Shown: in pieces, positions 16,208 through 20,132 of the stretch
Layout of the letters: every line of letters begins with the position of its first letter
Position numbering within the stretch: the first letter of the stretch is position 1
DNA from: Hyphobacterium indicum
GTDB taxonomy: Bacteria > Pseudomonadota > Alphaproteobacteria > Caulobacterales > Maricaulaceae
Direction: 5' to 3'
DNA length: 64,000 bases
Assembly (NCBI RefSeq): GCF_003129605.1
Contig: NZ_QBDX01000004.1
Location: 558,001 to 622,000 of the forward strand
The notes under the pieces: generated by a model
Database searches by the model: none
Told to the model about the DNA's origin: nothing
The model's input: only the letters and a program-made list of their open reading frames with translations
Program-made: the position numbers and the translations under genes

Positions 16208-16537
16208 ATGGCTATTGATCTGACCGCCGCCCGCCAGCGCCTGCTGGACCTGAAAGAGGAATTGCTGGCCCTGTCGCGCAGCGGCCAGGATGACCGCAAG
16301 CCGGTGGTGCTGGATCAGCAATCGGTCGGCCGCCTGTCGCGTCTGGATTCCATGCAGGTGCAGGCCATGGCCAGGGCCGCCGATGCGCGCCGCGCCATGG
16401 CCATCCGCCAGATAGACGCCGCGCTCATCCGCATGGATGAAGGCGAATATGGCTGGTGCGTGGAGTGTGGTGAGGAAATTGTGCCCAAACGCCTGGACAG
16501 CGACCCGGCCGCGCCGCGCTGTTCGGCTTGTGCCTAA
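16208..16537 (+). CDS. TraR/DksA-family C4 zinc-finger protein
   Basis: This 109-residue protein has a helical N-terminal half and a C4 zinc finger with C84, C87, C105 and C108 (CVECGEE ... CSACA). It is shorter than DksA (about 150) and lacks the DxxDxA tip of true DksA, so it is closer to the short TraR/YbiI-like proteins. It may bind the secondary channel of RNA polymerase. The 3' end overlaps the convergent methyltransferase gene by CTAA. Confidence 0.8.
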   Translation: MAIDLTAARQRLLDLKEELLALSRSGQDDRKPVVLDQQSVGRLSRLDSMQVQAMARAADARRAMAIRQIDAALIRMDEGEYGWCVECGEEIVPKRLDSDPAAPRCSACA

Positions 16538-17154
16538 GCCACTTTCGCCGCGCCGATATAGTCATACGCCACGATTCTGGGTGTTTTGGGCATATAGCCC
16601 GCCTCCAGCTTATCGATGGAAAAACCGCCTTCTGTGATCAGGCGGTCAATCGGCCGGGCCAGATGGCACCCGCCGGCAAAGACTTTCCAGACCGGCTCGA
16701 TCCGGCTTTGCCATTTGAGGACACCGGCATCGGGGGCCGCACCATGTTCGCAGAAGAGCAGCCGCCCGCCGGGTTTCAAGACCCTTCGGATTTCCGCCAT
16801 CGCTCCCGCAACATCCGGCAGGGAACACAGCGTGTAGGTCAAAACCACCGTATCCGCTGTCGCCGCTTCAAGAGGCAGGTCTTCGGCGACCGCATCGACC
16901 AGCTCGACCGGCAGGGAGTATTGCTGAATTGACCGCGCCGCCTTTTTGCGCAGGCCGGCATTTGGCTCGATTCCAATGACCGCCTTCACCCTGCTCGAAT
17001 CATAGAGCGGCAGATTCGGAGCCGCTCCCATGCCGATTTCCACGACCACGCCGTCCGCTTCGGGTACGATTTTGGCGCGTTGCTTCATGATCGGCGATTG
17101 TTTGCACGCCGTTCCGATCAGATTGGGCAGAATGACACGGTTGTAGAATGACAT
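16534..17154 (-). CDS. class I SAM-dependent methyltransferase
   Basis: This 206-residue protein has motif I VVEIGMGAAPNLPLYD (about 37-52), an acidic end of strand 2 (IGIEPN), motif IV-like VVLTYTLCSLPD, and EIRRVLKPGGRLLFCEHG after it. The overall pattern resembles METTL7/UbiE-like small methyltransferases acting on thiols, lipids or quinones. No target-specific motif is seen. Confidence 0.8.
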   Translation of the reverse strand: MSFYNRVILPNLIGTACKQSPIMKQRAKIVPEADGVVVEIGMGAAPNLPLYDSSRVKAVIGIEPNAGLRKKAARSIQQYSLPVELVDAVAEDLPLEAATADTVVLTYTLCSLPDVAGAMAEIRRVLKPGGRLLFCEHGAAPDAGVLKWQSRIEPVWKVFAGGCHLARPIDRLITEGGFSIDKLEAGYMPKTPRIVAYDYIGAAKVA

Positions 17155-17163
17155 GAGGTGACG

Positions 17164-17448
17164 CTAGTCGATGCCGGGAAAGCTCTCAACAAATTCGATC
17201 TGTATATCGCCAAAGCTTTCGACAAAGCGGATGGTGAAGTCCGGGAAACTCTCCACAAACTCCCATTCGCCGCAATCATCGGGGAAGCTGTCCACGACTT
17301 TCACCTTCAGATCGGGAAAGCTGGTGACCACTTCGACATCAATATCGGCGAAGCTTTCAACGACCTGCACCTCGCCATAAAGCGGGATGCCGTTCCAGGT
17401 GCAATCTTCGCTGATATCGAAAGCCGCCAGAGCCAGTAATTCAATCAT
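17164..17448 (-). CDS. small 11-residue-repeat (SFPD) beta protein; candidate knotted fold
   Basis: This 94-residue protein consists of six copies of a V-[ED]-S-F-[PAG]-D unit, with Val at 30, 41, 52, 65, 76 and 87. The spacing is exactly 11, apart from a 13-residue step in the middle marked by CGEWEF (59-64). Two cysteines (16 and 59) could pair. The pattern of three units, a Gly-x-Trp break, three more units and a terminal PG recalls the DUF6150 '7(1) septoil knot' family, but that is from memory of the pattern and the loop residues differ. The start at 17448 has GGGGAGGTG; an upstream start is less likely. Function is unknown. It lies between a methyltransferase and suhB. Confidence 0.7.
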   Translation of the reverse strand: MIELLALAAFDISEDCTWNGIPLYGEVQVVESFADIDVEVVTSFPDLKVKVVDSFPDDCGEWEFVESFPDFTIRFVESFGDIQIEFVESFPGID

Positions 17449-17504
17449 GGTGCACCTCCCCGGATCACAGGAAGCCACACCTTACATGAATGCACGCTGA
17501 CCGG

Positions 17505-18984: not shown

Positions 18985-19470
18985 CTAGGGATCGTCGCGG
19001 GCCGGCAGGCGGTATCCGCCAAACAGCCAGTCGAACACGTCCTTGACGATGAAGCTGGCCCCGCCCAGCGCCGCAATCGCGGCATCACGGCTCGCCCCGC
19101 CTTGCAGAAAGGCGGGTAATTGCGCCTCGATGTCCGGGAAGAACTGCCCCAGAAGCATCACCGCGAGGACCGCTGCGCCCACCCAGGCCAGCGCCAGGAT
19201 GAAGCCCTTGCGGCGCCCCCGGCGGCGGGCGGTGCCGAAACGGTCCCTTCTGTCCGCCTCGCGCATCACATTGCGCACGGCTTCACGCAGTTCCGGGCTT
19301 TCCAGCAGGCGGGTCCCGATCTGGCCGGGCTCGTCTTCGCCGGTCGCTGTGGCGGCCAGTGACAGGACCTGCTGCCCCTGGTGACCGGAGCGCACGCGGC
19401 GCGCCATCCGGTCATCGAATCCCGCCAGCAACAGAAGCTCGCGGGCCTGATTGCGTCTGCGGTTGATCAT
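18985..19470 (-). CDS. small membrane protein beside an endolysin, candidate holin
   Basis: This 161-residue protein has a basic, helical N-terminal half and one clear transmembrane helix near 92-110 (FILALAWVGAAVLAVMLLG). A second weaker hydrophobic stretch (AIAALGGASFIVKDVFDWLF) is near the C-terminus. Its ATG overlaps the stop of the GH108 endolysin gene (ATGA), the classic layout of a lysis pair. The layout recalls the separate endolysin-holin locus of gene transfer agents. I do not recognise the family with certainty. Confidence 0.55.
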   Translation of the reverse strand: MINRRRNQARELLLLAGFDDRMARRVRSGHQGQQVLSLAATATGEDEPGQIGTRLLESPELREAVRNVMREADRRDRFGTARRRGRRKGFILALAWVGAAVLAVMLLGQFFPDIEAQLPAFLQGGASRDAAIAALGGASFIVKDVFDWLFGGYRLPARDDP

Positions 19471-20057
19471 ACCCAGGCTCCATTGGCTGAATTGTCAGGA
19501 AGATCGGACGTATCGAATGGCGGCGGCGGATCGGTCCAGCCGGCCGCTTCCGGCTTCGGAATCGCGAGCGAGACCGCGCTCATCAGGCGGCGCGACCATC
19601 CAAGACCGAAGACGGAGAAGGTCGACAGCTTGCCGTAGAAATGCATGCGCCGGGCCGCATATTCCTCGATCAGGGCTGTGGCGTCGGCGGCAATGACCGC
19701 GCCCAGCGTTTGCGGGCCGATAATGCCGTCATCGGTCACGCCGGCGGCCTGTTGCAGGAAAAGCGTCGCGCGGTAGGGCCCGTGATTGACGGCCGCATCA
19801 AACAGGATGAATCCCACCCCCTTCGGCATATCGCTGCACCGGCAGGCATCCCAGTATCGCGCCTTGTAGATCTGGGCCGCTTCCTGGAGCGTCAGATGCT
19901 GGACATCCTCCCGTGTCACCGGCGTGCCGCGCCATTCGGCCAGCGTGCCGATGGTGATGCCCATATTGGTGGCCCCGCCGGGATCGGACGGATGGTCCAC
20001 ATAGCCGCCTTCAAACTGGAGAATGTGTTCCAGAGCGGTATCAAAATGAGTGGTCAT
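19467..20057 (-). CDS. GH108-family peptidoglycan hydrolase (endolysin-like)
   Basis: This 196-residue protein has the GH108 core: ILQFEGGYVDHPSDPGGATN with the catalytic Glu in EGGY, then the YWDACRC region and FILFDAAVNHGPYRA. A peptidoglycan-binding segment (GVTDDGIIGPQTLGAV) follows. No signal peptide is present, so export would need a holin, which the next gene may provide. The start at 20057 has GGGGAGG. Similar genes serve phages and gene transfer agents; no other phage gene is nearby. Confidence 0.85.
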   Translation of the reverse strand: MTTHFDTALEHILQFEGGYVDHPSDPGGATNMGITIGTLAEWRGTPVTREDVQHLTLQEAAQIYKARYWDACRCSDMPKGVGFILFDAAVNHGPYRATLFLQQAAGVTDDGIIGPQTLGAVIAADATALIEEYAARRMHFYGKLSTFSVFGLGWSRRLMSAVSLAIPKPEAAGWTDPPPPFDTSDLPDNSANGAWV

Positions 20058-20132
20058 GTCAGCCTCCCCTGTTGTTGTCTGACAGGGCGCAGGCTGGCGG
20101 CGGGTCAAGGCATCAAAAGGACCCAATCAGGG

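Follow-up and report, generated by a model that had tools for sequence, protein, structure and literature searches.

The window, as we call the whole stretch of 64,000 nucleotides analysed here, comes from Hyphobacterium, a genus placed in the Maricaulales, Maricaulaceae. On its minus strand lies a small gene for a repeat protein, hereafter called the window protein. Its features, and those around it, are as follows.

16534–17154, minus strand: class I methyltransferase gene, directly downstream of the repeat protein gene (Pfam Methyltransf_11, E 4.6e-18)
17164–17166, minus strand: stop codon of the 94-residue repeat protein (reading frame)
17167–17448, minus strand: 94-residue repeat protein, homologue of Q9PR55 (reading frame, phmmer match to PDB 8iwa, purifying selection)
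17167–17262, minus strand: second half of the repeat region, residues 63–94, repeats 4–6 (alignments; predicted strands 61–64, 71–76 and 82–87)
17263–17274, minus strand: central break, Cys59-Gly60-Glu61-Trp62 (Gly60 in 100 of 100 aligned rows, Trp62 in 98 of 100)
17275–17370, minus strand: first half of the repeat region, residues 27–58, repeats 1–3 (alignments; predicted strands 25–29, 36–40 and 47–51)
17401–17403, minus strand: Cys16, presumed disulfide partner of Cys59 (co-occurrence in 100 aligned rows)
17404–17448, minus strand: short hydrophobic N-terminus without Lys or Arg, residues 1–15 (leader survey; mean pLDDT of 52 for residues 1–10)
17455–17461, minus strand: GGGGAGG, resembling a ribosome-binding site, ahead of the ATG (also upstream in L002, L003, L004 and L005)

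The gene is real and under purifying selection. Its frame of 94 residues is counted from the ATG at 17448, which was chosen because GGGGAGG stands ahead of it here and in each of the four close relatives examined; the GTG at 17478, the start of a 104-residue frame in a mechanical list of open reading frames, was set aside. The codon differences from the four close relatives fall mostly at the third position, and the NG86 dN/dS values are 0.025/0.257, 0.039/0.556, 0.060/0.567 and 0.122/0.926. The window genome holds a single match to the repeat protein. In our genome collection, its nearest relatives belong to metagenome-assembled genomes (MAGs) labelled “Alphaproteobacteria” (96%), “Rhodobacterales” (91%) and Hyphobacterium (82%).

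Residues 27–94 are filled by six repeats of about 11 residues, with the pattern V-x-S-F-[APG]-[DG]. The repeat valines occupy positions 30, 41, 52, 65, 76 and 87, exactly where an earlier, sequence-only reading of this DNA had put them, and the Gly60-Glu61-Trp62 break and the coordinates were also correctly given there. That reading described the whole protein as a strict repeat. The period of 11 is indeed strong, with 27 identities at this offset as compared to a shuffle mean of 6.2 (0 of 2000 shuffles reach 27; none of the other periods from 5 to 19 is prominent in the 94-residue protein by the same kind of test), but residues 1–26 lie outside the repeat. Likewise, the exact 11-residue spacing holds within each half and widens to 13 across the middle (11-11-13-11-11), and the six “SFPD” repeats share Ser-Phe in all six loops, while exact SFPD occurs in just three of them (in order, SFAD, SFPD, SFPD, SFPD, SFGD and SFPG). 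The repeat in the 94-residue protein is thus real, and its layout is pseudo-duplicated: three 11-residue repeats, a Cys-Gly-x-Trp break, and three more repeats.

To our knowledge, no knot confirmed experimentally so far is more complex than that of Q9PR55. Sequence comparison identifies Q9PR55 as the nearest characterised protein to the window protein. A phmmer search of the window protein against all PDB sequences returned 8iwa, “Uncharacterized protein UU089.1”, with an E-value of 2.5e-9, the next match standing at 0.043. A profile of 38 rows (alignment A1) matched 8iwa at E 1.2e-15 and no second sequence up to E 1, and a profile of 96 rows matched it at E 1.6e-13, with a second sequence at 0.31. 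The PDB entry titles identify the 8iwa protein as Q9PR55, and one of them reads “Solution structure of a 7_1 knotted Q9PR55”. The alignment places residues 28–83 of the window protein on residues 28–85 of the 89-residue 8iwa chain, and thereby covers the knotted core, residues 27–83, given in the excerpted text of Brems et al. 2022, where a 7_1 knot was predicted for Q9PR55 (PMC9278004). This knot has been confirmed by an X-ray experiment, as stated in passages of PMC13352647 and PMC11223836, and a passage of PMC11184937 also mentions its experimental confirmation. On the evidence of the phmmer search and both profiles, we consider the homology of the window protein to 7_1-knotted Q9PR55 to be firm.

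The Ureaplasma urealyticum protein (Q9PR55 or UU089.1; PDB 8iwa, 8iwb, 8iwc, 8jrm and 8w68) resembles the window protein in its V-x-S-F-[PG]-D repeats, its SFPD and SFGD loops, and its central break, and the whole core can be aligned. In contrast, it is 89 residues long, and its central stretch is two residues longer and lacks the C-G-x-W motif. After the fifth repeat, Q9PR55 has only four residues, whereas the window protein has 11, which include the sixth repeat. The tie to a knotted family, which the sequence-only reading had raised as one possibility, is borne out by a clear homologue (phmmer E 2.5e-9, profile E 1.2e-15). The same reading had regarded the SFPD loops as a departure from the knotted family. 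Since knotted Q9PR55 carries SFPD and SFGD as well, these loops are a shared feature, and not a difference.

How widely is this family distributed? Among 60 genomes close to that of the window, 22 have a match, the window genome being one of them, and these represent 9 of 30 genera. The genome collection yielded 22 loci, partly overlapping those of the 60 nearby genomes; by title, their sources are, among others, MAGs of Leptospiraceae, Spirochaetaceae, Bacteroidales, Deltaproteobacteria and Gammaproteobacteria. In genomes drawn from particular taxa, matches occur in 6 of 398 from the window's phylum, 30 of 247 from the order of G060 (a Bacteroidales MAG), 12 of 395 from the phylum of G060, 12 of 30 from the order of G062 (a Leptospiraceae MAG), and 4 of 198 from the family of G541. 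Five loci lie among viral contigs, and 50,697 phage records contained no match. Of 72,556 plasmid records, three matched: the Leptospira weilii plasmids NZ_CP092209.1 and NZ_CP092208.1 carry relatives with 45–46% identity, annotated as hypothetical, and the Burkholderia stagnalis record NZ_CP156686.1 carries an unannotated relative at 45–46% identity.

From the fetched loci, we collected 99 distinct domains, excluding fragments shorter than 65 residues, duplicates, domains with E above 1e-5, the hits on plasmids, and matches for which there was no locus. Together with the window query they form an alignment of 100 rows, in which the window protein is also present as L001. Between residues 23 and 92 of the window protein, 89 of the 100 rows are complete and free of indels; in the other 11, there is an indel or one end is missing. 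The sixth loop is missing in four domains (L044, L083, L112 and L113), as it apparently is in Q9PR55. Two genomes from the order of G060 each encode a tandem pair of domains in one open frame (L100:1222–1755, plus strand; L106:1498–2040, minus strand), and one Bacteroidales MAG has two copies of the gene, separated by about 1.7 kb (L043, 6001–6276 and 7938–8213), with the cysteines displaced in both. In a Deltaproteobacteria MAG, the domain (L041:5956–6345 and beyond) is followed by a Cys-rich stretch and then by a hydrophobic C-terminal segment, like that of a surface-anchored protein.

The window protein matches no Pfam family at the cut-off, and its Pfam and NCBIfam matches are weak and below it. 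One of the 38 A1 members, probably L041, weakly matches DUF4215. The matches to DUF6893, SnoaL and other families in single members are weak and scattered, and were taken as chance.

The predicted structure bears on the topology. With the 38-row alignment, AF2 gave a pLDDT of 42.7, and no fold search was made from this model. For the same protein with 96 more diverse rows (the 99 domains minus L114, L117 and L146, with L001 entered as the window protein), the mean pLDDT rose to 91.8 (90.4–91.8 over five models) with a pTM of 0.81, and six strands were predicted, at the positions listed above. A Foldseek search of this model against 350,542 PDB chains returned four chains of Q9PR55, with E-values from 1.1e-6 to 1.6e-4, and no other chain with an E-value under 2.7; a search of BFVD returned nothing below E 0.5. 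Despite this match, the model superposes poorly on the solved Q9PR55 structures, with TM-scores of 0.29–0.31 by query and 0.31–0.37 by target and an rmsd of 10.0–10.1 Å over 64–68 columns. The Foldseek E-value may largely derive from sequence, because the identity in the Foldseek alignments is 40–42%. The poor superposition of the model counts against a simple identity of fold with Q9PR55. It could mean that the AF2 model is wrong, that the chain is truly interlaced in a different way in this branch with three repeats on each side (the “3+3” branch), or that the two structures have to be matched in another register. The abstract of PMC11795689 describes AF2 as over-confident on perfect repeats, and the very confident prediction obtained here (pLDDT 91.8), which disagrees with a solved homologue, calls for caution.

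These results allow two other views of the fold. One is that the window protein is homologous to Q9PR55 and has another topology: a 5_1 knot, a knot with more crossings or of opposite handedness, or no knot at all. Insofar as another knot is meant, this overlaps with the explanation that we favour below. The poor superposition of a confident model points in this direction, as do the sixth repeat, within 11 residues where Q9PR55 has four, and the protein P73136. The latter has 112 residues, is 48% identical to its homologue Q9PR55, and was predicted to form a 5_1 knot, according to the excerpted text of Brems et al. 2022 (PMC9278004). Because homologues with 48% identity are predicted to have different knots, 5_1 and 7_1, homology does not fix the knot type. 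However, the AF2 model may be wrong, and the Foldseek search still singles out Q9PR55 below E 2.7 among all of the chains. We therefore regard a different topology as a serious possibility, though not the one to be expected.

The other view is an ordinary open β-solenoid or repeat sheet, in which case the likeness to Q9PR55 would be driven by the repeats. Its strict 11-residue period and the poor superposition on 8iwa would suit a solenoid, and AF2 is reported, in the abstract of PMC11795689, to be biased toward solenoids. The Foldseek list also contains a HET-s amyloid, which we take to be a solenoid, at E 7.0 and a probability of 0.00. Nevertheless, the same search provided no structural match to known solenoids, with no PDB chain besides Q9PR55 below E 2.7. 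The central break of the window protein aligns with that of Q9PR55, and the profiles are selective: up to E 1, a single PDB sequence is matched by the 38-row profile, and the second match of the 96-row profile comes only at 0.31. An open solenoid is accordingly improbable. Loop-to-loop covariation, used as a guide to which repeats are neighbours, was uninformative, as it is confounded by the overall loop type (93 rows; seven named rows were removed for indels or duplication). As to prediction in general, AF2 is blind to topological barriers, and the 5_1 and 7_1 predictions may nonetheless be real, according to passages of PMC10672856. Judging from the homology, the chain of the window protein is likely to be knotted, and we leave the knot type unspecified.

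The sequence-only reading had pointed to DUF6150, which it took for a septoil-knot family; our literature search found no paper naming DUF6150. In the order of G060, 73 of the 247 genomes contain DUF6150, and 29 of 30 loci have three repeats, G-x-W, and three repeats, although the extraction pattern itself required the W motif (L066 was unmatched). The two families share this layout, but DUF6150 has 13-residue repeats of the N-R-Y-D-A-D type and a C-terminal tail, in contrast to the 11-residue repeats with S-F-[APG]-[DG] loops of the window protein. In profile–profile comparison by hhalign, the narrow alignment gave an E-value of 0.0029 (probability 10.8%), and the broad alignment, which leaves out the bridging sequences, gave 4.7e-5 (probability 68.3%) with the break in register. 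A reversed control gave 0.4, and none of 60 column shuffles did better than 0.057. Bridging sequences exist: L117, which is absent from alignments A1 and A4, scores E 4.8e-10 with the A1 profile and passes the 27-bit cut-off of PF19647 with 37.1 bits, and one G290 locus scores with both (E 4.2e-28 with PF19647 and 2.9e-7 with A1). From the shared layout, the hhalign score and the bridging sequences, we take DUF6150 to be a sister of the window protein's family.

A closer relationship, in which the window protein would itself be a branch of DUF6150, draws on the identical layout, the hhalign score obtained without bridging sequences, and L117. Against it stand the repeat length, the different loops, and the Pfam model: PF19647 has no match to the window protein even with a limit of E 10 (the gathering score of 27 bits is not reached), to the window genome up to E 1, to any of the 38 members up to E 1, or to any of the 96 members up to E 0.01. 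We consider such a branch hardly probable. The earlier suggestion of DUF6150 thus held for the layout and for the distant relationship, and failed at the level of the Pfam model. The DUF6150 profile did not match 8iwa up to E 10, and the viral contigs scanned with it contained no relative.

The family also has a conserved pair of cysteines. Cys16 and Cys59 occur together in 83 of the 100 rows; 16 rows lack both, and one row has only one of the two. A Fisher test of these counts overstates the association, as the rows are related and the window protein is counted twice. The discordant row is L044, the open frame of which has a Cys ahead of an insertion. Four of the 16 rows without the pair (two in L043, L115 and L116) have cysteines at nearby positions, whereas the others mostly belong to a subgroup with V-D-[VL]-[ST]-[KR] replacing the N-terminal C-T-x-x-G. 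The co-occurrence suggests a disulfide bond between Cys16 and Cys59, which is presumed in the following.

The leaders of the 99 domains were classified by a crude rule: 61 have Lys or Arg with a hydrophobic stretch, 17 are hydrophobic without Lys or Arg, and 21 have none, a class that includes the second domains of double proteins and the frames for which no Met was identified by the rule. Among 16 loci from the window's family, the leader lacks Lys and Arg in 11, three have none, and two have one with Lys or Arg (L007 and L020). L020, which comes from a congeneric genome, carries what looks like an ordinary signal peptide, and the window protein, L002 and L004 have MIELLALAAFDIS in common. 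Residues 1–15 of the window protein are possibly a vestigial signal peptide. Our reading of these leaders is that export was ancestral and that the leader has decayed in the window's branch. The 11 leaders without Lys or Arg and the three loci with none argue against export and a disulfide there; the window copy may have lost its export signal, and its branch is possibly intracellular. In the order of G060, the domain is preceded by hardly any leader in L088, L095, L096, L097 and L105. Both cysteines are missing from L097 as well, which would fit an intracellular form.

Taken together, we propose that the window protein is probably a knotted member, by descent, of the Q9PR55 family, forming a stable domain with an ancestral disulfide and ancestral export.

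Fold: By descent, the window protein belongs to a family of bacterial repeat proteins in which one structure, that of the 7_1-knotted Q9PR55 of Ureaplasma, has been solved. The two halves of the window protein would intertwine to give a knotted chain, as in Q9PR55 and as predicted for P73136, and this knotting would make a very small and very stable domain.

Disulfide and export: Most relatives would be exported, and the bond between Cys16 and Cys59 would pin the N-terminal arm to the central break.

Role: As our best guess, the function is that of a very stable exported domain. It might serve as a degradation-resistant scaffold or binding domain in the envelope or elsewhere outside the cytoplasm.

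A bolder extension of this proposal is that the 3+3 branch forms a torus knot unlike that of Q9PR55, differing in crossing number or handedness, with Q9PR55 as the solved, shorter member. The superfamily, including DUF6150, would then move between knots of differing complexity through the gain or loss of 11-residue repeats, and the disulfide would lock most of the members. We advance this only speculatively, as somewhat doubtful. Q9PR55, the sole solved relative found, is now placed in a broad bacterial family tied to DUF6150, and dozens of small natural variants in repeat number and cysteine pair are available for studying the origin, folding and type change of knots.

Finally, we examined the genomic neighbourhood. 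No neighbour is constant across the family, and the largest cluster of neighbours covers 9 of 96 loci, mostly with flanks of about 1.5 kb. A homologue of the methyltransferase lies downstream in 16 of the 96 family loci by tblastn, on the opposite strand in five of the 16; the window's family, with 16 loci in all, accounts for 11 of them, Maricaulis for four, and an alphaproteobacterial MAG for one. The remaining 80 loci gave no hit; as most have about 1.5 kb of flank, a partner further away would escape. The adjacency of the methyltransferase therefore looks like regional synteny, rather than a family-wide link. Upstream of the repeat protein gene lie an inositol-monophosphatase-family gene and the gene for elongation factor P, and a gene for a glycosyl hydrolase 108 protein, in which a peptidoglycan domain is predicted, is located near the latter (19470–20126, minus strand).
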